Of a DNA stretch of 64,000 nucleotides, positions 1 to 10,387 are shown piece after piece (position 1 is the first letter of the stretch; each line of letters begins with the position of its first letter). A model generated the notes under the pieces. It was not told the DNA's origin and searched no databases. It was given only the letters and a program-made list of their open reading frames with translations. The DNA is taken from NCBI RefSeq assembly GCF_004365705.1, contig NZ_SOBN01000003.1, positions 1 to 64,000 of the forward strand, read 5' to 3'. The DNA is from Streptomyces sp. 846.5 (GTDB taxonomy: Bacteria; Actinomycetota; Actinomycetes; Streptomycetales; Streptomycetaceae). The translations under genes were made by a program, and so were the position numbers.

Positions 1-267
1 CCACCCTCGCCTGCTCGATCACCCCGCGCAGGAACACCCGCTGGGCCGCCTCGTCGAGGTGGTGGGTCACCACGTTCGGGACGGGGGGTAAGGCGCGCGG
101 ACGGCGGCGGCGTGCTCCGCGACGGTCTCCTGGTCGGAGGAGTCCAGGACCAGCAGGTGGACCTCGACCTCGAAGTGCCCGGCCGCGTAGGCCGCCTCCT
201 GGTGCACGGCCGCGATCGTTCCGGCGCAGGCCCGGTCGGTGGGCAGGGTCAGACAGACACGGCGCAT
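1..267 (-). pseudogene. 5' part of an unidentified gene (possibly DUF6271-type), frameshifted and cut by the window edge
   Basis: Reading from 267 leftward the product starts MRRVCLTLPTDRACAGT and continues in frame for about 60 residues to a conserved-looking DSSDQETVAEHAAAV stretch. It then meets a stop at 67. A one-base shift near 88-95 restores an open frame (LPPVPNVVTHHLDE and onward) that runs off the left edge, so one base is probably missing in the GC run there. The start overlaps the end of the dioxygenase-like gene by 19 bases, which suggests translational coupling. The N-terminus looks like the first beta-alpha unit of a glycosyltransferase-like fold and recalls Streptomyces proteins annotated DUF6271, but that is a weak recollection. 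Function unknown. Confidence 0.55.
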
Positions 268-1347
268 GCGTGGTCTCCGTTCGTGAGTTCGGACTCGGCG
301 GCTTCGGACTCGCCGGCTTCGGACGTGCGGTTGCTCCAGGAGTCGAGGCCCAGCAACTTGCGGCCCAGCTCGTTCAGTTCGGCCGGTCCGTAGCGCAGCG
401 ACTCGTGCTTGACCGCGTCGCCGACCAGGGTCCCGTTCCAGTCCGGTGTGCTGAGGTGGCGCCAGGAGTCGATCCGGGAACGCCGCAACTGCTGGTGCGA
501 CTCCAGGGCGGGCATCATCGACAGGTACTGCACCGCCCGCACCCCGTTCGCCGAGGTGTTGCGGGCCACCCCGTGGGCCAGCAGACCGTTCCAGATCAGC
601 AGGTCCCCGGCGTGCAGTTCCGGGCGCACCACCGGCATCAGCGCGCGGTCGACCCGGGGCCGGATCGGGTCGCGGTCCGCGGGCTGCGCCGTCTTCCAGC
701 GGTCGAACTGACGGAAACAGCTCGGGGTTGCACTGGAACCCGCCCTCGTCGAGGGTGGTGTCGTTGAGGGCGATGAGCCCCTGCACCCGCTGCGGCAGCA
801 CGCCGAGCGAGGTGTCGACGTCCCAGTGCAGCTCGATGTCGAAGCCCCGGTCGGTGGGCGCGATCAGCAGCCGGTCACGGTTCCTGACGTTGGGCGGGTT
901 GAGGTTCAGCCGGTCCAGGCTGACCCACAGCTCCTCGCAGCCCCACACGTCCGCGAACGCCTCGTAGACGCGCCGGGTCTGCCGGCTGTCCCAGATCAGC
1001 TGGTGCTGGTAGGCCTCGACGAAGCCGTAGATGTGCAGTTCACGGTCCAGGTCGGTGCGGTACGGGCGGTCCTCGTACCAGGTGTCCGGCCGGTCGGGGT
1101 CCAGTCCCTGGAAGTCCCAGGCGAAGTCCAGCAGGCGCGCGGCAGCGGCGGCGGGGATCGCCTGCCGCACGATGACGTAGCCGTAGGTCTGCCAGAAGGC
1201 GAAGTCCTCCGGGGAGAGGACCCGCAGCGGGCGCGGGCTTTCGAGGTCCCGCAGGGGGGTCAGGGCCAGGTACTTCTCGCCGTCCGAGCTGAAGTACGGC
1301 AGGTCGGAGGCGGCTCGGTACAGGTAGGGGTCATCAGGCATCGGCAT
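249..1347 (-). pseudogene. phytanoyl-CoA dioxygenase (PhyH)-like protein, one frameshift
   Basis: PhyH-type Fe(II)/2-oxoglutarate oxygenases hydroxylate small molecules and are common tailoring enzymes. I chose the ATG at 1347 because GGAG lies six bases upstream. The N-terminal frame shows the metal-binding HWD (in ELHWDVDTS) and the double-stranded beta-helix core through GGFQCNPELF. One extra A near 714-717 then shifts the frame. The downstream frame resumes as FRQFDRWKTAQ and continues through DLLIWNGLLAHGVARN, which supplies the distal histidine and the Arg that binds 2-oxoglutarate. Removing that base gives a full-length protein of about 365 residues. The intact motifs in both halves argue for a recent indel or a sequence error. 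It probably forms an operon with the gene starting at 267. Confidence 0.75.
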
Positions 1348-1841
1348 GGGTCGCTCCACGGAATCGACACGGAATCGGCATGGGTGCGAGGCGCCGGGCA
1401 GCCCACGACGGGCTGACGCTGCGGCGGGTCATGCGCGGGCAGTACGAGAGGACGAACAAGGGGGACAGACAGGGGGAGGCCGACAGAGGCTCGGAGGGAC
1501 TCGGATGTCGCGCAGGCCGGCTGCGCGCTGGTCAACCTGGAGAAGTCGGGATCTTCGCGGGAGCGGCACGCTGCTTGTCTTCCTCTGGTCCAGTGCCGTC
1601 TCGTTCTTCACTCGGTGAACTCCCGCCCCACCAAATTGGACTAGACAAGTGGTCACGTCAACAGCTGGCTCAAGGAGATTGCGTGTGCAAGGTGTCATGG
1701 ATATGCAAAGACCATGCGCAGGCGCAGGTCAGCGCGGGTGCTGCGGTGAGCTGCGCGGTTTCAGGCCAAAAGTCCAGGTCAGTGGCTTGATCGGGGTCCC
1801 CTTGACAGCCTCGCGCGACCCGGGACACCATCCCCTCGTGA
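1348..1841. other. intergenic region with no convincing gene
   Basis: About 490 bases lie between the dioxygenase-like gene and the end of the XRE regulator, both on the minus strand. No reading frame here has coherent composition or a family signature. The one notable element is a palindrome at 1635-1650 that resembles a DasR-type operator and is listed separately. The region would hold the promoter of the dioxygenase-like gene. Given the indel density just to its right, a damaged short gene cannot be excluded. Confidence 0.4.
1635..1650. promoter_or_regulatory. DasR (dre)-like palindrome
   Basis: The sequence ATTGGACTAGACAAGT matches 13 of 16 positions of the dre consensus A(C/G)TGGTCTAGACCA(C/G)T bound by the GntR-family regulator DasR in streptomycetes. 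It lies about 290 bases upstream of the dioxygenase-like start. The match is my alignment by eye; binding is inference. Confidence 0.35.
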
Positions 1842-2740
1842 TCAGTGCGTGTGGTCGACCACCGGCAGGCCAGGGTTGGCCATCAGCCCACGCGATCCGT
1901 GCCGGCTCTCCTCGTCCTCCGGGGTGTACACCACCAGCCGCCCTCGGGCATGCCCATCGAGGTCAGGTTGGTCGCCGACATCCGCACCTCGCCGACCGCC
2001 GCCATGCGGAAGATCTTGTGCCGGGTGGAGTGCGCGGCCACGTCCTGCTGCGCCCAGAGCCGGGCGAACTCCGGACTGGCGCCGATCAGGTCGCGGATGA
2101 AAGTCCTCCCAGTAGGGTTCGCCGACATGCTGCCCGTAGCCGGAGCGCAGCACCGCGAACCATCCGCGGCAGCTCCTCGGCGCCGGTTGACGAAGGCGTT
2201 GCAGCACTCCGGGATGGTCGCGGTGGACCACATGGTGTTGTGCCGTCCGTCGGTGCGGGTGACGCCGGGGAACAGCCGCCTCGTAGGCGGCGTTCCAGCG
2301 CAGGATGTTCGTAACGGGCGCTGGTGATCGACGCGGGGAGCGGGGACAGCGCGTCCAGGATGGTCTTGCATCTCCGGGCTCAGCGGGCAGGAGTCCATCA
2401 CGGGGAGGGCCGGCTGCAGCCCGGCCAGGGTGAAGAGATGGCTGGGTCTCCTCGGCCGTCCAGCTTCAGCGTGCGGGCGATCGCACTGAGCACCTGCTCG
2501 CTGGCGGTTGATCGGACGTCCCTGCTCCAGCCAGGTTGTACCAGGTGACACCGACACCGGCGAGCTGCGCCACCTCCTCGCGCCGCAGTCCGGTGGGTGC
2601 GGCGGCGCAGGCCCGGGCCATGCCCACGTCCTCGGGGGTGACCCGGGCCCGGCGGGCCTTGAGGAAGGCGGCGAGCTCGGTGCGGTCGCGGGGCGGCGGC
2701 CGAAACGGTTGCTGACAGCTGCGTCGTCCATCACGCTCAT
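1842..2740 (-). pseudogene. XRE/MmyB-like helix-turn-helix regulator with about twelve indels
   Basis: Pieced together across frames, the product reads MSVMDDAAVSNRFG, an HTH with GLRREEVAQLAGVGVTWY and WLEQGRPIN, then a ligand-binding half with LFTLAGLQPALP, WEDFIRDLIGASPEFARLW and HKIFRMAAVGEVRMS. This is the usual order of Streptomyces XRE regulators with an MmyB-like C-terminal domain, which commonly repress a divergent MFS or oxidoreductase gene. Single-base shifts occur near 2699, 2534, 2504, 2456, 2441, 2367, 2310, 2280, 2182, 2160, 2101 and 1942; most are insertions. No stop codon arises within the correct frame of any segment. It is divergent from the efflux gene at 2823, its likely target. 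Confidence 0.75.
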
Positions 2741-2773
2741 GGGTTCATGGTGGCGCATTCGGCGGAGCCGCTG

Positions 2774-2817
2774 ACAGGTACTCCCAGTACCAGTATCGGC
2801 AGGCTCTAACTACCTGT
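2774..2817. promoter_or_regulatory. operator region between the XRE regulator and the efflux pump
   Basis: A perfect inverted repeat GGTACT-CCC-AGTACC occupies 2777-2791. A second pair, ACAGGTA at 2774-2780 and TACCTGT at 2811-2817, is also exactly inverted. Both lie in the 82-base gap between the divergent starts, where autoregulatory XRE proteins usually bind. The second half-site ends five bases before the efflux ATG. Confidence 0.5.
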
Positions 2818-2822
2818 ACCGG

Positions 2823-4313
2823 ATGACCGCCACGATAGTTCGCATGGCCGATACGCAGATCACTCCTGACAGCACAACCTCTGCCTCCACCAAGCCAGTT
2901 TGGCCCAGCACCCGCGGTGCTTCGCCACCCGCGCCGTCCCGGCCCGGCCTGCTGCTGGCACTGATCCTGGTCGGCCAGTTCATGGCCGTCCTGGACGTCT
3001 TCATCGTCAATGTGGCCACCCCGGTCATCCGCACCGATCTGCACGCCTCCGGGGCCGCTCTGCAGCTGGTCATCGCCGGTTACACGATCGCCTACGCGGT
3101 CCTGCTGATCACCGGCGCGAGGCTGGGGGAGCGGCACGGCTTCAGCCGGGTGTTCCGGTTCGGGGTCGCCTCCTTCACGCTGGCCTCGCTGGCCTGCGGC
3201 CTGGCGCCCGGGGCCGACTCGCTGATCGGTTTCCGGATCCTGCAGGGTGTCGGCGCGGCGCTGATGGTGCCGCAGGTGATGAGCCTGATCCAGCGCACCT
3301 TCGAGGGCCCGGCCCGGTTGCGCGCCCTCGGCGGCTACAGCGCGGTGATCGCCGGCGCGGGGGCCGTCGGCCAGGTGCTCGGCGGGGTCCTGGTCAACGC
3401 CGACCTGTTCGGCTCGGGCTGGCGGCCGGTGTTCCTGGTGAACGTCCCGATCGGGGTGCTGCTGCTGGTGGCCGGACGCAGGCTGCTCCCGGCGATCCCG
3501 GGCAACCGCGAGCGCAAGCTGGACCTGGCCGGCCTGGTCACCCTCGCGGCGGCCCTGGGCCTGCTGGTGGTGCCGCTGGTGATGGGCCACGAGGAGCACT
3601 GGCCGGCGTGGGGCTGGGTGATGCTCGGCGCGAGCGTGCTGCTGTTCGCCCTGTTCGGGCTGGTCGAGAGCCGGGTGGCGGCGCGCGGCGGCAGCCCGCT
3701 GATCCGCGGCCGGGTGCTGCGTTCGCCGGGACTGCTCACGGCCGGCTCGGCGCTCTTCCTGATCATGTGCTGCGTCGGCAGCTTCATGTTCGCCATGGCG
3801 ATGCACGTCCAGGCCGGGCTCGGCCTGAGCCCGCTCGACGCCGGGCTGGTCTTCCTGCCGATGTCGTTCGGCTTCGGGATCTCCGGGATGTACTGGCAGC
3901 GGCTCCCGCAGCGGCTGCACCGGCAGCTCCCGGTCGTCGCCCTGGCGCTGTGCGCGGTCGGCTACGCGGCGGTCGGCCTGCTGCTGAGGGACGGACAGCG
4001 GGTCGGCGCCGCCGTCGAGATCGTGCTGCTGCCGCTCGGCCTGATCGGCGGCTGCGCGTACGGCCCGCTGATGGGCCGCGCGCTGGGCCGGGTCGCCCCG
4101 ACCGACGCGGCGGACGCCAGCGGCGTGCTCGTCACGATGATCCAGCTCGGCAGCGTGGTCGGCGTCGCCACCCTGGGCACCCTCTTCGTGAGCCAGGTGA
4201 GCTACCCGGCGGCAGCCTCGACCTCCGGACACGCCCTGGCGACCACCGCCGCGGGGGTCGGCATCCTGATGCTCATCGGAGCGGTCCTCGCAGGTCGGAG
4301 GCGTGACAAGTAA
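2823..4313 (+). CDS. MFS efflux transporter, DHA2 (EmrB/QacA) family
   Basis: A proton-driven drug or metabolite exporter of the inner membrane with about 14 predicted transmembrane helices in 496 residues. The N-terminal tail of about 40 polar residues is followed by motif D1 in LDVFIVNVATPVI, motif A in GARLGERHGFSRVF and motif C-like GAVGQVLGGVLV, all in the usual DHA2 order. The ATG at 2823 has no clear ribosome-binding site, and a second ATG at 2844 is possible; the transcript may be nearly leaderless. It is divergent from the damaged XRE regulator and separated by paired inverted repeats, so it is probably induced when that regulator is released. The substrate cannot be inferred. Confidence 0.93.
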   Translation: MTATIVRMADTQITPDSTTSASTKPVWPSTRGASPPAPSRPGLLLALILVGQFMAVLDVFIVNVATPVIRTDLHASGAALQLVIAGYTIAYAVLLITGARLGERHGFSRVFRFGVASFTLASLACGLAPGADSLIGFRILQGVGAALMVPQVMSLIQRTFEGPARLRALGGYSAVIAGAGAVGQVLGGVLVNADLFGSGWRPVFLVNVPIGVLLLVAGRRLLPAIPGNRERKLDLAGLVTLAAALGLLVVPLVMGHEEHWPAWGWVMLGASVLLFALFGLVESRVAARGGSPLIRGRVLRSPGLLTAGSALFLIMCCVGSFMFAMAMHVQAGLGLSPLDAGLVFLPMSFGFGISGMYWQRLPQRLHRQLPVVALALCAVGYAAVGLLLRDGQRVGAAVEIVLLPLGLIGGCAYGPLMGRALGRVAPTDAADASGVLVTMIQLGSVVGVATLGTLFVSQVSYPAAASTSGHALATTAAGVGILMLIGAVLAGRRRDK

Positions 4314-4344
4314 TTGGTGGGGCGCCTTCCCGACCGTGTACAGT
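4314..4344 (+). promoter_or_regulatory. candidate promoter of tRNA-Ala
   Basis: TTGGTG at 4314-4319 and TACAGT at 4339-4344 are separated by 19 bases. They lie about 50 bases before the tRNA and just after the efflux stop codon. The spacing is slightly long for a HrdB-type promoter. Confidence 0.35.
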
Positions 4345-4394
4345 GAGACACGTCGCGAGCGGGACCGGAGACGGGACCCCCTCGGCGGCGGTCC

Positions 4395-4467
<73 letters not shown>

Positions 4468-4472
4468 CAGTG

Positions 4473-4504
4473 GATCCCGTCCGGTCGAGAGACCGGGCGG
4501 GATC
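4473..4504. terminator. stem-loop terminator between tRNA-Ala and the HTH gene
   Basis: Fourteen-base arms at 4473-4486 and 4491-4504 pair fully with one G-U wobble around a GAGA loop. They follow the tRNA by five bases. The convergent HTH gene ends ten bases further on, so it may serve both strands. Confidence 0.75.
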
Positions 4505-4513
4505 TTGTCGTCG

Positions 4514-4747
4514 TCAGGATGCCTGCGAGGCGGGTACGTTCTCGCAATCCTCGGTGGCGGCAGTGAGCGCCTGCGACAGTTGACCGATCTCGGTCTCACT
4601 CAGCCCCATCACTCTGGCGATGCTCGCCGGTGCCGCCCCTGCCTGGAATGCGCGGACCGCCAACTCCCACAGCTCCTCCTTGTGCTCGCGGGTGCGCAGG
4701 TGGATCTGCGCCAGCAGGGGGATGGCTTCGACGGTCTCGATTGGCAT
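4514..4747 (-). CDS. small helix-turn-helix protein of 77 residues
   Basis: The protein begins MPIETVEAIPLLAQIHLRTR and carries a sigma-region-4-like HTH over residues 37-60 (AGAAPASIARVMGLSETEI). No other domain is visible. AAGATGGGG lies a few bases before the ATG. It may be a small DNA-binding regulator or a component of a phage-like or differentiation switch; I do not recognise a named family. It heads the accessory block 4.5-9.6 kb. Its upstream region has an 18-base inverted repeat overlapping a plausible promoter (4870-4908), so it is probably controlled by a dedicated repressor or by itself. Confidence 0.7.
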   Translation of the reverse strand: MPIETVEAIPLLAQIHLRTREHKEELWELAVRAFQAGAAPASIARVMGLSETEIGQLSQALTAATEDCENVPASQAS

Positions 4748-5010
4748 GTCCCCATCTTCTCTGCTCGGCGGTTGAGGGGGAAGTGGGTGCGAGTGCTTGT
4801 CTCAGATTCACCCTGGTGGGGGGTGGCAGTGCATCGTCGTTCATGCATCCTGCTCGGCAAAGGGTGAATAAATTAGGCAAAGTAGCAGTAAAGTCACCCA
4901 GGTGACTTATGGGATTCATGGGTCAAAAAGGGACAATCTCGTTCGATGCCGCATTTTGCTGCTTCCCCTCTGGGGCTGGTGAAGATCGTAGGCTAAGATT
5001 GGTCGGTACT
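4748..5010. other. AT-richer intergenic stretch
   Basis: The bases between the small HTH gene and the peptide promoter are visibly richer in A and T than the rest of the window, especially 4855-4965. No gene is supported on either strand. The stretch holds the inverted repeat at 4891-4908, described separately. Such composition suggests regulatory DNA or horizontally acquired sequence. Confidence 0.5.
4870..4908 (-). promoter_or_regulatory. candidate promoter and operator of the small HTH gene
   Basis: AAGTCACC (4891-4898), CA, GGTGACTT (4901-4908) is an exact inverted repeat with a two-base centre. On the minus strand GTGACT (4897-4892) and TAATTT (4875-4870) are 16 bases apart and could be -35 and -10 boxes. 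The repeat would then cover the -35 box, as expected of a repressor site. Confidence 0.45.
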
Positions 5011-5039
5011 TATAATGTGTTGCCATGCCCATATGGGCA
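5011..5039 (+). promoter_or_regulatory. TATAAT promoter with a perfect 14-base palindrome
   Basis: A perfect -10 box TATAAT stands at 5011-5016; no good -35 is seen, so an activator may be needed. The palindrome TGCCCATATGGGCA at 5026-5039 starts ten bases downstream, at about +4 of the predicted transcript. It could be an operator or form a hairpin in the leader of the secreted peptide gene. Confidence 0.55.
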
Positions 5040-5080
5040 CGACGGGGCACCCTCGGCCCCACCGAGAGGAGTCAACCAAA

Positions 5081-5260
5081 GTGAAGCGGATTCGGATCGC
5101 GGTCGGAACGCTGCTTGCAGCCGGAGCTGCGGTTGTCGGCGTGTCCCTGGGTGTGGTTGCCCCAGCCGCCTCCAGCTTGGGGTCACATGTCACGCATGGC
5201 CAGAGCCATGTTATTGAGGCTGACTCGGGCTGGAACCAGAACGCGTCCTTGCTCAAATAG
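5081..5260 (+). CDS. small secreted peptide precursor, 59 residues
   Basis: The GTG at 5081 is preceded by GAGAGGAG with nine-base spacing. A basic start (VKRIRI) is followed by a hydrophobic core of about 22 residues ending in VVAPAAS, a typical Sec signal peptide with an AxA-type cleavage site. The mature part would be about 27-29 residues, ending HVIEADSGWNQNASLLK. It has no cysteine, contains SHV twice, and has one Trp. No family is recognised. It has its own TATAAT promoter, a palindromic leader and a terminator, and converges on a LuxR-type regulator gene ending 34 bases away. That arrangement and the two further regulator paralogues suggest an exported signal or effector peptide; this role is inference. 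Confidence 0.65.
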   Translation: MKRIRIAVGTLLAAGAAVVGVSLGVVAPAASSLGSHVTHGQSHVIEADSGWNQNASLLK

Positions 5261-5268
5261 CATGGTTG

Positions 5269-5298
5269 ATTGGGGCGACGTGCCGGCGTCGCCCTAAT
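5269..5298. terminator. bidirectional terminator between the peptide and regulator genes
   Basis: Twelve-base arms ATTGGGGCGACG (5269-5280) and CGTCGCCCTAAT (5287-5298) pair with one G-U wobble around a six-base loop. The right arm includes the stop codon of the converging regulator gene, so both transcripts probably end here. Confidence 0.7.
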
Positions 5299-6253
5299 TG
5301 ATTCCATTCGGAAAGCGTTCGTGCAGCAGCCAGCCGAGGCGAATGGCAGAATCCGTGCCGTACTCCTCGTTGATCTCCGCACGAATTCGCGTGACCATCC
5401 GCTCGCTCAGCTGAAGATTCCGGGCTATCTGCCGGGTGCTCATCCCATCGACCAGCATGCGCATCACCGTCAGCAGCGTCTTGTCGATCGGCGCTTCTTG
5501 TCCTGGGCGGGGCATGAAGTCCTCGCCCAATTGCCAGAGCACTTCGAAAATGCGTGCGAGGGCAGTAACGGTCGACGGGTCCTGAATGAAGACCGCTCCA
5601 CTGATGTCGCCGTTGTAGGGAATGATCACGGTATCGTCGATCACGAACTGTCGCTGAGGCAGGTGCGCCAGCGTCCGAACGCCGGCACCTGCTGCCGTGA
5701 CCGCTTCCACGTATGCTTGCGCAGCTGATTGGCGCCGTACTGGAGTCAGGTAGAGCATGCGGACATCGGCACCGCGCCGGACGGCATCGAGATCCCGCCC
5801 GATGACGGACTGCAGCGTCGCTGACGGCCGGGTGGCCTCCGGATGGATGGTCAGCATCCGCTCCTGGCAACTCTCCAGCAGCATGGACAGACGCTGGTCG
5901 ATGGCGGGCGTCCCCGTGACCACCTCGATGGCACCGCTCTGGGACTCCTGGGCGCGCAGGTACTGCTTGGTCAGGGAGGCGGTGGACTGAGGCAGCCGCG
6001 ACACCCACAGCAGATCGCGAACCACTTCCTTCAGCACGCGTGATGACTGGCGTGCTGCGGCAAGCTCGGGGTCTCCGGCGGCCACCACATCCGGAAACTC
6101 CGGGTCGACGGCCAACAGCCCGAACTCCAACAGATAGGCCAGGGCATCCTTGTCGCCGACCAATTGGGTGGCGTCGGCCACAGGCATCTGCCCCTGCTCG
6201 AGCACGAGGCGGTACAGCGCCTCTTCTCGGGGCGTCAGATCGCGCCGTTCCAC
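5294..6253 (-). CDS. LuxR-type regulator with phospholipase-D-like middle domain (paralogue 1)
   Basis: About 319 residues. The N-terminal third (LTPREEALYRLVLEQGQMPV) looks like a winged helix as in TrmB-like proteins. The middle third has the fold pattern of PLD-like sensor domains (VRMLYLTPVRRQ, RQFVIDDTVIIPYNG, VTALARIFEVLWQLGEDF) without an HKD catalytic motif. The C-terminus is a LuxR/FixJ HTH (MSTRQIARNLQLSERMVTRI). I prefer the GTG at 6253, with GGGGAG seven bases upstream, over the GTG at 6268. It lies 56 bases after the deoxyribosyltransferase-like gene and is probably cotranscribed with it. It converges on the peptide gene, sharing a terminator, and may sense the peptide or a nucleotide ligand (inference). 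Confidence 0.8.
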   Translation of the reverse strand: MERRDLTPREEALYRLVLEQGQMPVADATQLVGDKDALAYLLEFGLLAVDPEFPDVVAAGDPELAAARQSSRVLKEVVRDLLWVSRLPQSTASLTKQYLRAQESQSGAIEVVTGTPAIDQRLSMLLESCQERMLTIHPEATRPSATLQSVIGRDLDAVRRGADVRMLYLTPVRRQSAAQAYVEAVTAAGAGVRTLAHLPQRQFVIDDTVIIPYNGDISGAVFIQDPSTVTALARIFEVLWQLGEDFMPRPGQEAPIDKTLLTVMRMLVDGMSTRQIARNLQLSERMVTRIRAEINEEYGTDSAIRLGWLLHERFPNGIN

Positions 6254-6309
6254 CCGCCCGCTCCCCACAAAGGTCTGTCGGCCCGCCGCAGGGCCGCGTC
6301 AGGCTGACC

Positions 6310-6879
6310 TTAGCTGCTGACGGTGGAAGCCGCACCCATCTCGTCCGCGCTCGGCCAGATGGTGTGGTCCGCCCAGTCGAGCGCGGTGACCAGGATCTGC
6401 TGGAGTGCTGTGGCCGACCACGAATTGTCATAGGCGAGCGGGAAGACCGGGCAGACCTCCTCGAGGGACTCCACGAGAGGGTTGTGCTCGACCGCACGGT
6501 CGACGAGAAGGATGATCGGCTTGCGCATCGCGGAGGCCCAGCCGAGTTCCAGGGCGACGCCCGACGACAGCGGTGAGCCGACGCAGGCGACCACCACGTC
6601 GGCGGTCATCACCGCGCGGTGGGTGGAGGGGACACGGGGGCTCTCGGTGGTGCCGCGAGCGACCCAGGACTGGTCGTGGTGCGAGGAGAAGACGCGAACG
6701 CCACTGTTCAGCAAGGCCTCACGCAGGGCGGTCACCCGGGCCCGCAGGGCCAGGGGGAAGACGCCGTCGGCGGGACCGGTCAGGCGCAGGGAGGGAGTGG
6801 CCAGAAATACCCGCAGGAGCTGTGGCTCCACAGCTGCGATCCTGTCGGCTGTGCCGTCCTCGACCAGGTACTCACTCAT
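6310..6879 (-). CDS. nucleoside 2-deoxyribosyltransferase-like protein
   Basis: A 189-residue protein starting at the ATG at 6879, with GGAG seven bases upstream. A Rossmann-like start (LLRVFLATPSLRL) is followed by a helix (RVTALREALLNSGVRVFSS) and then ADVVVACVGSPLSSGVALEL followed by GWASAMRKPIILLV. The last is the family signature (aDxvva, S/D-G-t-a-x-E-l-G-x-A, kPii) and keeps the catalytic Glu. Relatives transfer or cleave deoxyribose on nucleosides; related folds include TIR-like and SLOG nucleotide-binding proteins. In this locus a nucleotide sensor or signal-producing role is as likely as salvage. It is the first gene of an operon with the regulator ending at 5294. Confidence 0.7.
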   Translation of the reverse strand: MSEYLVEDGTADRIAAVEPQLLRVFLATPSLRLTGPADGVFPLALRARVTALREALLNSGVRVFSSHHDQSWVARGTTESPRVPSTHRAVMTADVVVACVGSPLSSGVALELGWASAMRKPIILLVDRAVEHNPLVESLEEVCPVFPLAYDNSWSATALQQILVTALDWADHTIWPSADEMGAASTVSS

Positions 6880-7247
6880 GCTCAGCTCCGTCGAGACAGC
6901 CGACAGCCCCGACCAGGTGGGAAGAACCAGGTCGGAGTGTCGGTGGGACTGGGTAGAGCGGCCGGCGCCGGCGGCCCTTCGGGGGGATGACCAGATCCTC
7001 GCCCGGTGTTCGTACGTGTGTCCAGGTGTTCCCGTCGGCCACCGATGGCATGGCAAGCAATGGCCACATTCGGCCGTTGGCTTCCCCGCAGGCAGTGCGC
7101 CCGATCGTTCAGGGCCGACTGCGGTTGCGGTGACTGGCAAACGCTGGCATGGCACATACTAGCCGCACGAAGGGCATGGACGCGCCAAGTTGGAACGCGC
7201 AATCATCGGGACACACCCCGGGCCGACCCTCCTCGGCGGTCCAGGTA
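6880..7247. promoter_or_regulatory. intergenic control region with repeated TGGCATGGCA motif
   Basis: No gene is supported here. The decamer TGGCATGGCA occurs at 7046-7055 and 7145-7154, exactly 99 bases apart, and GGGCATGG at 7172-7179. The complementary core TGCCATGCC also stands just downstream of the peptide -10 box at 5021-5029. On the minus strand TAGTAT (near 7160-7155) followed directly by the motif resembles the TATAAT-motif arrangement of the peptide promoter. It may drive the 6879-5294 operon. Confidence 0.4.
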
Positions 7248-7281
7248 CGAGGCGCCGCGTCACCCCGGTCGCGGCGCCTCG
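7248..7281. terminator. terminator of the paired-regulator operon
   Basis: Twelve-base arms CGAGGCGCCGCG (7248-7259) and CGCGGCGCCTCG (7270-7281) are exact complements around a ten-base loop. They start four bases beyond the stop of the regulator ending at 7285 (minus strand). Confidence 0.7.
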
Positions 7282-7284
7282 CTT

Positions 7285-8334
7285 TCATCCGCTCCGGGCG
7301 CCTCCTGTGGCTCGCGGCCCTGGGATTGACTGACTGTCCTGCAGGGCCTGCCAGCGGCTGCCCAGCGCGTACAGGTTGGCCACGTTGAACTTTCCCTTCA
7401 AGTGGGCCAGGCGATTGCTCAGCGTGCGCTCCGAGACGCCCAGACGGTTGGCGATGGCGTCCATGGTCAGGCCCTGGTCGAGGAAGCGCAGGATCGCCAG
7501 TTCCTCGTCGTCCAGCGAGACCGGCGTGGGATCCCCCGCTGCTGCTGCGCCGTCCCAGTGCTGCCCCATGGCCCACAGCATCTCGAAGTGGTCGACGAAG
7601 TGAGCCACCACACTGGGGTTCGAGACCTGCAGATGGCGCAATCCTGCCTCGGGCAGCGCGGACTTGTCGGAGACCTTGGAAGCCACTGCCTCCGGCAGGA
7701 AGGCGATACGGCGGTCGATGGCCAGCGTCTGGGCGAACAGCCAGGGAACGGTGCGGACCTGCGCCCCGCTGCGGGTCACCGCTTCGATATGGCTGCGCAG
7801 TTGCTCCTGCTGCCGGGCCGCGTTGTGGTAGATCACCCGAACCGGGAGCCCGATGGCCAGGGCGGCGCGCACACCCGAGGCCACCTGGGCGGCGGCCACG
7901 CCCGGCGGCCCCTGGGGGAGGCAAGCCAGGATCTCGTGCCCGACCCCGTGGAGGGCCTCGGCCATCGCCTGCTCTATCGCGGGTGCGCCCTGCAGGACGA
8001 GAACCTCCCCGCGCTCGCGTGCGCTCTCACGATGCTCACGGGCAAGACGCTGCAGAGAGGCCAGGAGCGGCACAGAGTCATGAATCAGGCCGGCCGCGAC
8101 CGAGGTATTGCGCTCGCTCCACTCATCCGCCACGACGCTCGGGTCAACCGGCGCCAGTCCGGATGGTGCCGTCTCCGACTCGCGCACGAGCCCCAGGGCG
8201 AGGAGTTCCGCCACGTCCGAAGCTCTGCCGGCGAGTTCGGCGGTGGGGGACGACGCCCAGTTGGACACCAGTATTCCCACGAACAACTGCTCGGCGCTGG
8301 AGCGGAGGACCGTTTCGGGCCGTTCGTCAACCAT
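7285..8334 (-). CDS. LuxR-type regulator with phospholipase-D-like middle domain (paralogue 2)
   Basis: A 349-residue protein with the same three-part plan as its neighbours. There is a divergent N-terminal third, a PLD-like middle (VLVLQGAPAIEQAMAEAL, LPVRVIYHNAARQQEQLRSH, TLAIDRRIAFLPE, VVAHFVDHFEMLWAMGQHWD) and a C-terminal LuxR HTH (GLTMDAIANRLGVSERTLSN). GAGGAG precedes the ATG. The start overlaps the end of the preceding regulator by eight bases (ATGGTTGA), so translation is coupled. It is clearly a tandem duplicate of that gene: FVDHFE, LGQ/MGQHWDG and the HTH align directly. A hairpin terminator follows at once. Ligand unknown. Confidence 0.82.
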   Translation of the reverse strand: MVDERPETVLRSSAEQLFVGILVSNWASSPTAELAGRASDVAELLALGLVRESETAPSGLAPVDPSVVADEWSERNTSVAAGLIHDSVPLLASLQRLAREHRESARERGEVLVLQGAPAIEQAMAEALHGVGHEILACLPQGPPGVAAAQVASGVRAALAIGLPVRVIYHNAARQQEQLRSHIEAVTRSGAQVRTVPWLFAQTLAIDRRIAFLPEAVASKVSDKSALPEAGLRHLQVSNPSVVAHFVDHFEMLWAMGQHWDGAAAAGDPTPVSLDDEELAILRFLDQGLTMDAIANRLGVSERTLSNRLAHLKGKFNVANLYALGSRWQALQDSQSIPGPRATGGARSG

Positions 8335-9370
8335 CCTGCACGCTCCTCAACGGCTCGGAAGCATCGGGTACGTGTGCAGGGAAAGGCTGTCCCTTCAGCC
8401 CTTGCCACTTGCGGCCGAGGCCGTACAGCGAGTTCACCTCCATTTTGGTCCGGAGGGCGGTGAGCCGCTTTCCCAACGTGCGTTCGGAGATCGAGAGGCG
8501 CGCTGCGATCGCCTCCAGGGAGAGGTCCTGGTCCAGGTACTCCAGAATCAGCCTCTCCAACTGGTCCAGTGGCGGGGCGGCCTGCGCCCCGGCCGCGGTT
8601 CCGTCCCACTGCTGACCGAGCGCCCAGGAGAACTCGAAGTGGTCGACGAAGTGTGCGACGAGCGAGGGATGCCTGGTGCAGAGAGCGGTGGCGTAGGAGA
8701 CTCTGCCGACCCCCATCGCGTGGAAGACCTCGCTCAGCCCGGTGGTGGGCATGAAGGCGAGCTTGCGATCGATGATGATGGCCCGGGTGAACGGCCACGG
8801 CACCGTGCGGACGAGTTCTCCGGCCTGGGTCATGCGCTGGACGTGGTCGCGCAACATCGGCCTCTGACGCTGGTTGGTCTGGTAGAGCGTGCGGATGGTC
8901 ACCCCCCGTTCCAGCGCCAGCGTGTCCTGCTGGTAGGACCTGTCGAGCTCCATCTGGAGGCGTGCACCGTGTGGCTGGGCGCACAGCAATTCGAACTCGA
9001 CGTTCTTGAGCGCGTCTGCGATGGCCGTGTTGATGTCCGCAAGGCCCCGCAGATACGCCACCGGTCCGCTGGAGTCCCGCTGTGCCTCGTCGAAGGCCTC
9101 GGCAATGCGGGCCAGGCGCTCCTGCGCCGCCGCCGCCTCCTGCAGCAGTCCGCTGACCTCGGTGGCCAGTCGGCGGCTCAACTGCAGGCCGACGACGCCC
9201 GGGTCGTTGAGGACGAGCCCGCCGTGGGCGTGCCGGCTGACGAGTCCCAGGTCCAGCAGTTCGCCGAGCTCCTCCGACGGGGCGGCTTCCTGCGCCGACA
9301 CCCCGTTGCGGACCAACTCGGCGTAGAGCAGCTCGGCCTGCTTGCTCAGCCCCGATGTACCAGTCTCCAC
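8327..9370 (-). CDS. LuxR-type regulator with phospholipase-D-like middle domain (paralogue 3)
   Basis: About 347 residues from the GTG at 9370, which has GGGAG seven bases upstream; a longer GTG start at 9442 lacks one. The N-terminus (LSKQAELLYAELVRNGVSAQ) is a winged-helix-like segment. The middle domain has GVTIRTLYQTNQRQ, RAIIIDRKLAFMPTTG and LVAHFVDHFEFSWALGQQWD. The C-terminus is a LuxR HTH (DLSLEAIAARLSISERTLGK). It is the first gene of a two-gene operon with its paralogue at 7285-8334. TAGGAT at 9438-9433 is a plausible -10 box. Two different regulators made at equal levels may act as a heterodimer (inference). Confidence 0.82.
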   Translation of the reverse strand: METGTSGLSKQAELLYAELVRNGVSAQEAAPSEELGELLDLGLVSRHAHGGLVLNDPGVVGLQLSRRLATEVSGLLQEAAAAQERLARIAEAFDEAQRDSSGPVAYLRGLADINTAIADALKNVEFELLCAQPHGARLQMELDRSYQQDTLALERGVTIRTLYQTNQRQRPMLRDHVQRMTQAGELVRTVPWPFTRAIIIDRKLAFMPTTGLSEVFHAMGVGRVSYATALCTRHPSLVAHFVDHFEFSWALGQQWDGTAAGAQAAPPLDQLERLILEYLDQDLSLEAIAARLSISERTLGKRLTALRTKMEVNSLYGLGRKWQGLKGQPFPAHVPDASEPLRSVQDG

Positions 9371-9543
9371 CGACGTTCTCCCTGATCGGATCTGTCTGCT
9401 GCCTTCCCCCAGGAGCGCGAGAGCGCTGCTGATCCTAGCCACAAGCCCTGTGTGGGCTCGATCGGATGAACCCGGTGGGGTGTTCTGGTTTCCGCAGTTT
9501 CCGATTCAGGCATGCGCAAATCACTTGTTCGAAACGGATCCGG

Positions 9544-9567
9544 TGATCATTGTGATCATGGCATATG
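9544..9567. promoter_or_regulatory. paired TGATCA palindromes upstream of the regulator operon
   Basis: TGATCA occurs at 9544-9549 and again at 9553-9558, three bases apart, followed by TGGCATATG at 9559-9567. The GGCAT core recalls the motif repeated at 7046 and 7145. The site is about 110 bases upstream of the predicted -10 box of the 9370-7285 operon. Confidence 0.35.
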
Positions 9568-9612
9568 CGCGCAGGGGACAGCGGAGCCAGCGACCCGCTG
9601 CCCCCTGCGCGC
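9567..9612. terminator. strong hairpin terminator after the methyltransferase gene
   Basis: Eighteen-base arms at 9567-9584 and 9595-9612 pair with a single mismatch around a ten-base loop, 14 bases beyond the methyltransferase stop (minus strand). It separates the metabolic operon from the regulator operon. Confidence 0.75.
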
Positions 9613-9625
9613 GATCCGCCGGTCC

Positions 9626-10387
9626 TCAGACCGGCTTGCGGGCCTCGATCAGGAAGCGTGTGGTGTGGGCCACGAACGGGCCGTCGCGCCGGATCTGCCG
9701 GTCCAGGTCCCTCAGCCGCCCGCGGTACTGCTCGACGGTGAAGCCGGGGACCATCCAGATCACCTTGCGCAGGAAGTAGACGACCGCGCCGATGTCGAAG
9801 AACTCGGTGCGCAGGGTCTCCGCGCGCAGGTCCACCACTTCCAGGCCGGCGGCCCCGGCCGCCTTGCGGGCATCGTCCGGGTGCCGCCCCCGGCGGGACT
9901 CCTCGGGCTGCGGGCCCAGGAAGTACTCCACCACCTCGAACACACTGGCGGGGCCCACCTGCTGGGAGAAGTAGGTGCCGCCGGGCGCCAGCACCCGGGC
10001 GATCTCGTCCCACCAGGTCCGCACCGGGTGCCGGCTGGTCACCAGGTCGAAGGCGGAGTCGGCGAAGGGCAGCGGCGGGTCGTCCTGGTCGGCGACGACC
10101 GCGATGCCGCGCGGGTGCAGCAGCCGGGTCGCCCTGGCGAGGTTCGGGGGCCAGGACTCGGTGGCCACCGCCACCGGCGGTACGACCGGCGCCGCGGCGA
10201 GGACCTCGCCGCCCCCGGTCTGGATGTCCAGCGCCGCGCTCGCGCTCGCCCAGCGCTCGCCCATGGCGCGTTGGTAGCCCCAGGAGGGGCGCTGCTCGGT
10301 GGCCCTGCCGTCCAGCCAGGAGAAGTCCCAGCCGTCGACGGACACGGACCCGGCTTCCGCCACCAGCTCTTCGAAGCTTCGCATCAT
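9626..10387 (-). CDS. class I SAM-dependent methyltransferase
   Basis: About 253 residues from the ATG at 10387 (or 10384). The Rossmann glycine motif is atypical: ALDIQTGGGEVLAAAP replaces the usual vLDvGxGtG, with the acidic residue in LDIQTGGGE. GIAVVADQDDPPLPFADSAF and DLVTSRHPVRTWWDEIARVL correspond to motifs II-IV, and APGGTYFSQQVG is the post-motif strand typical of small-molecule methyltransferases. VEQYRGRLRDLDRQI closes the protein. It lies 70 bases after the NuoF-like gene on the same strand and ends at a strong terminator, so it may be the last gene of that operon. Substrate unknown. Confidence 0.85.
   Translation of the reverse strand: MMRSFEELVAEAGSVSVDGWDFSWLDGRATEQRPSWGYQRAMGERWASASAALDIQTGGGEVLAAAPVVPPVAVATESWPPNLARATRLLHPRGIAVVADQDDPPLPFADSAFDLVTSRHPVRTWWDEIARVLAPGGTYFSQQVGPASVFEVVEYFLGPQPEESRRGRHPDDARKAAGAAGLEVVDLRAETLRTEFFDIGAVVYFLRKVIWMVPGFTVEQYRGRLRDLDRQIRRDGPFVAHTTRFLIEARKPV

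Follow-up and report, generated by a model that had tools for sequence, protein, structure and literature searches.

An adjacent short peptide and TrmB/LuxR-type regulator in Streptomyces sp. 846.5 as a likely pheromone-receptor cassette of a large actinobacterial family

Introduction

Peptide signalling of the RRNPP type, whose members are Rap, NprR, PlcR, PrgX and Rgg, works with very short mature peptides that occur in receptor-specific variants. Streptomyces and their relatives rank among the major producers of antibiotics; the hormones best known from them are small molecules, e.g. gamma-butyrolactones. Passages of PMC10075063 place peptide signals in Firmicutes and describe the signals of Actinomycetota as typically enzyme-made small molecules, while passages of PMC9640686 describe a 655 Da peptide that is imported by BldK of Streptomyces coelicolor and presumed to be a signal for aerial mycelium. 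Here we describe a locus at positions 4514-9612 of a 64,000-nucleotide stretch of DNA from Streptomyces sp. 846.5 (the window, meaning the whole stretch that was analysed), in which the gene for a 59-residue precursor peptide lies beside that for R3, a regulator predicted to combine a TrmB-like winged helix, a PLD-like middle domain and a LuxR-type helix-turn-helix (HTH). We put at roughly three in four the probability that this locus belongs to a large actinobacterial family of peptide-pheromone/receptor cassettes, in which case a pentapeptide would be released from the exported precursor, taken up again and bound by R3.

A description of such a family, defined by D-x-x-W peptides and TrmB-LuxR regulators, was not found in the open literature on actinobacterial and Streptomyces peptide signals and on BldK, a scope that leaves subscription journals and bioRxiv mostly outside. 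The main text of PMC13136126 (2026), which treats N-acyl-homoserine lactone (AHL)/LuxR systems in Actinomycetota, does not, by text search, contain the words "peptide" or "TrmB", and the consulted portion of PMC13118837, on Streptomyces orphan proteins, holds nothing relevant to the D-x-x-W family.

Results

Precursors with a D-x-x-W unit accompany regulators of the R3 plan

The central features of the locus are the following.

5081..5260, plus strand: precursor peptide of 59 amino acids with a GTG start, a Shine-Dalgarno sequence and a predicted Sec-type signal sequence; C-terminal end SHVIEADSGWNQNASLLK
5222..5236, plus strand: predicted mature pheromone unit D-S-G-W-N, precursor residues 48-52, placed by motif
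5294..6268, minus strand: R3, predicted pheromone receptor-regulator with a TrmB-like winged HTH, a coil, a PLD-like domain (residues ~108-250) and a LuxR/GerE HTH
6310..7155, minus strand: nucleoside deoxyribosyltransferase (NDT)-like protein, closest to CMP N-glycosidases (BlsM/CMP hydrolase type) by a PF05014 match and PDB relatives; start unsure
7285..8334, minus strand: R2, paralogous regulator with V where R3 has D159
8327..9370, minus strand: R1, paralogous regulator with D where R3 has D159; frame open to 9442

An earlier reading made from the sequence alone (the sequence-only reading) had listed these open reading frames (ORFs), whose coordinates and types were confirmed on re-reading the sequence, and had proposed that the locus serves peptide signalling. 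That proposal is supported by D-x-x-W precursors at the best loci of 13/13 other genus genomes, 41/89 loci of the class and 42/80 loci fetched later, as against 0/13 ORFs at TetR loci. The key feature, the D-x-x-W-x unit itself, is absent from the sequence-only reading.

Profile matches to regulators of the R3 plan were obtained in 77 of 216 genomes of the class (E <= 1e-40) and in 261 of 297 genomes of the taxonomic family (E <= 1e-75). Short ORFs around such regulators were collected by a scan that required a Shine-Dalgarno sequence and a hydrophobic start, with signal peptides called by a simple hydrophobicity rule, and a precursor was counted as associated when a signal-like start and D-x-x-W lay within 800 bp of a family regulator. 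The window precursor, with DSGWN, has both and lies 43 bp from the R3 match; it is the one signal-like short ORF in window 4001-10000. By locus, a D-x-x-W precursor was found within 800 bp at 41 of the 89 class loci, some of whose stretches overlap, and at 3 of 12 plasmid loci, where three further "hypothetical proteins" carry DDEW or DDQW yet fail the start rules of the scan. The later set gave 42 precursors at 80 loci, all 42 sequences being new. This set was made up of a first batch of 20, 40 taken in list order minus same-genus and already used genomes, and 20 chosen by hand from lower rows with the sequence unseen; it excludes L172-L180, which belong to the same genus and had been counted already, and its locus L185 is the same place as L046, where a precursor was not found.

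Duplicate peptides, pairs with a stop in the regulator stretch and seven duplicate loci were removed before counting. At a uniform threshold, D-x-x-W is carried by 96 of the 198 distinct ORFs with signal-like starts that lie no more than 800 bp from a regulator, compared with 5/105 control ORFs in total (5/86 at 1 kb or more from the regulators, 0/13 from 30 TetR loci and 0/6 in the rest of the window). When the tails of the 198 near ORFs were shuffled 200 times, D-x-x-W appeared in a mean of 16.5 and at most 28 of them. The five control hits include two at 1018 and 1194 bp; all five were counted against the association. A first survey, repeats included, had given 59/112 near ORFs, 0/58 at 1 kb or more and 0/5 in the rest of the window, and the later 80-locus set gave 2/9 far ORFs with the motif. 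In orientation, the peptide gene is upstream of and opposite to the regulator gene in 69 of the 96 pairs, downstream and opposite in 22, as in the window, and on the same strand in 5. Short ORFs with Sec-type signal-like starts thus often recur beside homologous regulators, as opposed to never neighbouring them. Since roughly half of the loci yielded no precursor by the scan, a family regulator can exist without a peptide; the association is strong, not universal.

No Pfam or NCBIfam model scored above cut-off for the window peptide or 10 other precursors (11 of the 96 were scanned), and tblastn with the L083 regulator gave zero matches in 50,697 phage records. Some loci without D-x-x-W hold near-variant repeats, such as four GNTWPG units at L150 and two TTAWE units at L109. 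These two repeat ORFs are signal-like and lie 0.6-0.7 kb from family regulators, which hints at a motif broader than D-x-x-W. At L111, L115, L125 and similar loci, four or five tandem family regulators stand by a single precursor; the window has three and one. On Streptomyces linear plasmids (L165, L169, L171), a family regulator is paired with a divergent short peptide carrying DDEW or DDQW; two of these three peptides contain two Cys. Genes for an AfsA-related hotdog protein, an acyl carrier protein and a phosphopantetheinyl transferase adjoin the pairs, and such loci may join peptide signalling to that of the butyrolactone type.

The unit is repeated within precursors and varies between them

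Many precursors hold several copies of one unit: 10 DSTW, 7 DVGW, 7 DSGW, 6 DDRW and 5 DPxW were counted in single precursors. Across 31 multi-copy precursors, identity between copies was 1, 1, 0.99, 1 and 0.89 at D, x1, x2, W and x4, and 0.16-0.34 at eight flanking positions; the 10 multi-copy precursors of the later set alone gave 1, 1, 1, 1 and 0.93. Between precursors of the first set, agreement was 0.26 at x1, 0.17 at x2 and 0.20 at x4. The search criterion presets D and W but leaves x1, x2 and x4 free, so it is these three positions that carry the argument. The 96 precursors contain 57 distinct units, three of them without x4. The last W is most commonly followed by one residue before the stop (28/96), by two in 12/96 and by twelve or more in 15/96, and a small-x-Ala site stands immediately before the first D in 24/96. 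The repeat pattern points to D-x-x-W-x as the probable mature signal, which here would be DSGWN.

The same data bear on whether the signal returns to the cell at all. Detection could take place at the membrane, or the peptide could act within the cell prior to export, e.g. as an uncleaved precursor that titrates the regulator, which would make it a device for self-monitoring and not a pheromone. A single-copy precursor such as that of the window fits any route, but up to 10 like units in one precursor and the small-x-Ala sites suggest the release of short units, and R3 is modelled as a soluble DNA-binding protein; we regard signalling without re-import as quite improbable beside the pheromone/receptor cassette.

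Peptide, one regulator and the NDT-like gene are conserved together in the genus

Two orthologous loci in other species keep the gene order of the window: 77-amino-acid gene, peptide, R3, NDT-like gene, R2, R1 and methyltransferase. Their R3 orthologues are 69-70% and 67% identical to that of the window, and matches at this level (E <= 1e-50) occur in 3 of 394 genomes of the family. The peptide orthologues, at the same place in both genomes, are 63% and 51% identical by search and 56% and 53% by alignment; they share a core QSH...ADSxW with in-frame indels, and their units read DSVWG and DSSWP against DSGWN in the window. Genus-wide, the peptide, one regulator and the NDT-like gene are kept together in 14/14 genomes, the NDT-like gene lying within ~0.7 kb, and a D-x-x-W precursor stands beside the best R3 match in all 13 other genus genomes as well as in the window. 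A second locus with a different unit is present in at least five of these 14 genomes (L039, L040, L042, L043 and L052). The unit conserved across the genus is thus the peptide, one regulator and the NDT-like gene, not all six genes of the block in the sequence-only reading.

Short ORFs with a hydrophobic start do arise randomly in GC-rich sequence, 57.8 kb of the window holding 6 of them, which is the case for taking the short ORF as a chance or non-coding frame beside an ordinary array of paralogous regulators. Retention of frame, motif and position in the orthologues, the precursor in 14/14 genus genomes and the excess of 96/198 over 5/105 controls leave this explanation next to no probability.

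The unit co-varies with the middle domain of the regulator

Distances between pentapeptides were computed from x1, x2 and x4 and compared with distances between regulator domains by Mantel label permutation. Pentapeptide and middle-domain distances were correlated in the first 54 pairs (rho 0.302, 0/999 permutations) and in all 96 pairs (Mantel rho 0.364, 0/499 permutations), where the partial correlation was 0.339 for the middle domain given the HTH (0/499) and -0.108 for the HTH given the middle domain; because label permutation leaves relatedness in, the evidence is the contrast between the domains and not the p-value. Among distant pairs only (>= 0.6), the middle domain gave 0.295 and the HTH 0.001; close pairs (below 0.5 or 0.6 distance) were removed only in analyses labelled distant. 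By these sequence comparisons the unit co-varies with the TrmB/PLD-like middle domain more than with the HTH.

Each of 262 columns was scored against the three variable positions of the unit, and residue 159, which in the R3 model lies in the helix preceding a strand of the PLD-like domain, came out on top; the HTH positions 297, 272 and 288 also scored high. Where x1 is S or T, residue 159 is acidic in 64 of 65 pairs; where x1 is D, in 1 of 14; and with any other x1, in 9 of 17. On a tree built without columns 158-161 the acid is lost 8 times and x1 changes class 10 times; four of the eight losses fall on the branch of an x1-class change, three lie inside clades with changed x1 and one is a misfit. 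This coincidence on branches has a value of 2.5e-4 for a pre-named site and fails correction for 262 columns x three. Since residue 159 is the best-scoring column, it is suggestive only, and the domain-level covariation alone is firm. An acid at 159 that hydrogen-bonds the hydroxyl of Ser or Thr and repels Asp would explain the pattern. The residue at this position is D in R3 and R1 and V in R2, so that R1 might share the signal; judged by sequence, it need not be the case that all three regulators answer the peptide.

The regulators have a TrmB-like architecture and the NDT-like protein resembles CMP N-glycosidases

Alignment bears out the claim that the three regulators are paralogues of one plan (pairwise identity 39% over 283 residues and 26% over 262), each with a GerE/LuxR HTH (PF00196; 26.8, 31.0 and 27.3 bits, cut-off 23.5). 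A structural model of R3 built from 9 sequences (predicted local distance difference test 76, predicted template-modelling score 0.48) has a winged helix, a helical linker, a PLD-like domain and the HTH. Its nearest PDB entries are TrmBL2/TrmB (5bpi, E 2.3e-14; 3qph, 8e-8; 2f5t, 7.3e-5) at 12-16% identity, and the modelled fold shows both marks of the TrmB family, the winged helix and the PLD-like ligand domain. This likeness to DNA-binding proteins that carry a ligand domain speaks for R3 as the receptor. In the alignments inspected, the HxKx4D motif of active PLD enzymes is not in R3, which reads P204-x-R206-x4-D211, in agreement with the PLD-like middle without HKD that the sequence-only reading had described. 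Neither tetratricopeptide repeats (TPR) nor an AHL autoinducer-binding domain gave a Pfam match at E <= 1 in R1, R2 or R3.

The NDT-like protein matches PF05014 (30.9 bits, cut-off 28.8), as its proposed likeness to deoxyribosyltransferases would have it, yet its nearest solved relatives are CMP N-glycosidases, from E 2.4e-15 (BlsM, 5vto) to 2.1e-9. Conceivably, the enzyme might supply or remove a nucleotide tied to the response. NDT-like genes were also seen around family regulators outside the genus, at L181 (E 2e-86), L245 (1e-23) and L247 (7e-21).

The regulator could instead sense another ligand, e.g. a sugar or the nucleotide product of the NDT-like enzyme, and control the peptide as an output, a secreted bioactive or structural product. 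The fold nearest to R3 is TrmB, whose solved ligand domain (2f5t) is titled sugar-binding, an NDT-like gene lies near the regulator in all 14 genus genomes, and many family regulators have no peptide by the scan. An output peptide, however, need not co-vary with the ligand domain, and covariation was seen in two sets; moreover, the 89 class loci, among them 41 with a peptide, yielded no NDT-like gene in the stretches covered, and outside the genus such a gene appears only at the three later loci just named. Together these make the output explanation rather unlikely, though less so than signalling without re-import, and leave the pheromone/receptor cassette preferred.

Other features of the locus and its genomic context

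The remaining features of the locus are the following.

4514..4747, minus strand: ORF for a 77-amino-acid small protein, kept in the two orthologous loci at 61% and 67%; its link to the system is a candidate only
5011..5016, plus strand: candidate -10 TATAAT of the peptide gene, from the sequence; differs in orthologues and lacks a full sigma-70 site by scan
5021-5029, plus strand: copy of the motif TGCCATGCC before the peptide gene
5026..5039, no strand assigned: candidate operator, perfect 14-bp palindrome TGCCCATATGGGCA between the -10 and the Shine-Dalgarno sequence; different sequence in orthologues
5044..5071, plus strand: leader GGGGCACCCTCGGCCCCACCGAGAGGAG, kept in three species, with a predicted hairpin pairing the Shine-Dalgarno sequence
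5269..5298, no strand assigned: candidate bidirectional terminator, an inverted repeat located where the peptide and regulator genes converge; arms of 12 nt, 92% complementary
7047..7055, minus strand: copy of TGCCATGCC within the 5' part of the NDT-like ORF
7146-7154, minus strand: copy of TGCCATGCC at the start of the NDT-like ORF

Several smaller claims of the sequence-only reading were borne out in part. The ORF of the supposed small HTH protein at 4514-4747 is present, while all Pfam HTH models score below cut-off on its product; the HTH label is therefore the earlier reader's own reading. The TATAAT read as the promoter of the peptide gene is in place at 5011-5016, but a comparison of promoters showed that neither it nor the 5026-5039 palindrome is the same in the orthologues, and a promoter scan returned zero sigma-70 promoters. 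The three proposed terminators are indeed inverted repeats, those at 7248/7281 and 9567/9612 having arms of 12 nt (100%) and 18 nt (94%), yet a terminator scan that required a T run found none at these two or at 5269/5298. The 64 kb hold three copies of the motif said to recur at promoters, against an expected 0.68, and all three fall within the locus; three copies were reached in 2 of 100 shuffles. Two of these copies are at the 5' end of the NDT-like ORF or within it, the true start of this ORF being uncertain. A 10-mer of TGCCATGCC recurs at the 5' end of the NDT-like ORF in both orthologous loci.

Three species share 27 of the 28 bases of the leader at 5044-5071, the single differing base being unpaired, and the Shine-Dalgarno sequence of the leader falls inside the predicted hairpin, so that translational control of the precursor is possible. 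In 394 genomes of the family the leader pattern gave only 2 further matches with 3 mismatches each, the level of a reversed control pattern, and the folds were not more stable than shuffles (z -0.89, -0.03 and -0.39). A riboswitch-like element was rejected, there being no covariation to judge and ordinary stability.

The Streptomyces sp. 846.5 genome comprises 9.03 Mb in 5 contigs, and the window is the start of contig C3. Its positions 1-9945 match the last 9.9 kb of contig C1 at 99.5% identity with 42 gap openings and 3 mismatches; the C1 copy has broken frames and ends together with the contig. The high identity, the 42 gaps and the stop at the contig end indicate an assembly overlap, and a second, decayed genomic copy of the locus was rejected; the broken frames probably reflect unpolished overlapping contig ends. 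A dioxygenase-like ORF (identified by eye) at window 67-1359 has an apparent frame change near its C-terminal third and continues in ORF 249-638 on the minus strand, perhaps through a sequencing error near the contig end. A tRNA-Ala gene at 4395-4468 adjoins the locus. A tRNA-adjacent island was rejected, as the region is collinear in two other species, which implies no recent insertion at the tRNA. A defence system was likewise rejected: PADLOC at E <= 0.01 matches the R2 HTH region only.

Discussion

The sequences themselves show the pairing of the two genes and its conservation, as well as the five-residue unit and the covariation of that unit with the middle domain. For export, cleavage, re-import, binding and the responding genes we infer the following course. 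The product of 5081-5260 would be exported by Sec as a precursor and cut outside the cell to the D-x-x-W-x pentapeptide, here DSGWN, which would be re-imported, probably through an oligopeptide permease. In the cytoplasm it would bind the TrmB/PLD-like middle domain of R3, and bound R3 would alter its hold on DNA through the LuxR-type HTH. The outcome would be an adjusted expression of R3, the upstream NDT-like gene and the peptide gene, and possibly of R1 and R2 too; regulation of the R3 and NDT-like genes, and perhaps of the peptide gene, could act through palindromes such as 5026-5039.

Several observations weigh against this course. First, many loci are without a D-x-x-W precursor by the scan: 48 of the 89 in the class, 38 of the 80 in the later set, 9 of 12 on plasmids, all three paralogues in the own genome and a fourth, L012. 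The signal peptides, too, rest on a hydrophobicity rule rather than on SignalP. Second, the window precursor is single-copy, with seven residues following the unit. Third, apart from the relatedness left in by label permutation, the HTH given the middle domain keeps a partial correlation of 0.202 (0/499) in the later set alone and of 0.184 (12/499) among its distant pairs. Lastly, residue 159 has exceptions, N in a DTIWN pair and D kept in a DDEWP pair, and for 6 of the 10 x1-class changes the branch concerned shows no loss of the acid.

Taken with the counts in two sets of loci, the analysis supports peptide quorum sensing with a new receptor class, real and wider than the sequence-only reading held. 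It is somewhat better than an even bet that Actinomycetota use a language of D-x-x-W-x pentapeptides in which each unit has its own TrmB-LuxR receptor, with specificity in x1, x2 and x4 and partly via residue 159, perhaps wired to secondary-metabolite or developmental genes; the signal imported by BldK could belong to it. Since the sequence of an encoded signal is predictable, synthetic peptide can be supplied to cultures to probe silent clusters and development. If the reading is true, the TrmB/PLD-like fold joins the receptor folds of peptide quorum sensing, and it would suggest a function for many regulators annotated as "LuxR family" or "helix-turn-helix" and for many "hypothetical protein" genes. 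It also gives a concrete list of candidates for peptide signals imported by BldK-type permeases.

Comparison with known systems

The closest parallel is RRNPP of the Firmicutes, in which, according to passages of PMC10075063, a short propeptide exported by Sec is encoded next to an intracellular receptor. The window peptide and 96 distinct precursors lie beside their regulators in the same manner, their signals called by the hydrophobicity rule. The receptor here, however, gives no Pfam TPR match and is built from a TrmB/PLD-like domain and a LuxR HTH, the unit is of the form D..W, and the phylum is another. Since the defining TPR receptor is absent, the D-x-x-W system is not an RRNPP member; most likely its logic is RRNPP-like and its receptor unrelated.

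On the receptor side, archaeal TrmB and TrmBL2, the best PDB matches, share the winged helix, linker and PLD-like domain, whereas the regulators here add a C-terminal LuxR HTH and a linked secreted peptide. With LuxR proteins of the AHL type and actinobacterial LuxR solos they have the C-terminal GerE HTH (PF00196) in common; in contrast to AHL-type LuxR, they give no autoinducer-binding match and have a modelled PLD-like middle. The NDT-like protein keeps the E of ELGWAS/EIGWAS in two alignments with BlsM and the CMP N-glycosidases but is encoded next to a regulator-peptide pair.

On the peptide side, precursors of the yeast alpha-factor type likewise carry several copies of one short unit between variable spacers, though the unit here is a bacterial pentapeptide D-x-x-W-x. 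The free pentapeptide is similar in size to the peptide imported by BldK (DSGWN ~577 Da, calculated), and the D-x-x-W-x family offers candidates for that peptide, no more.

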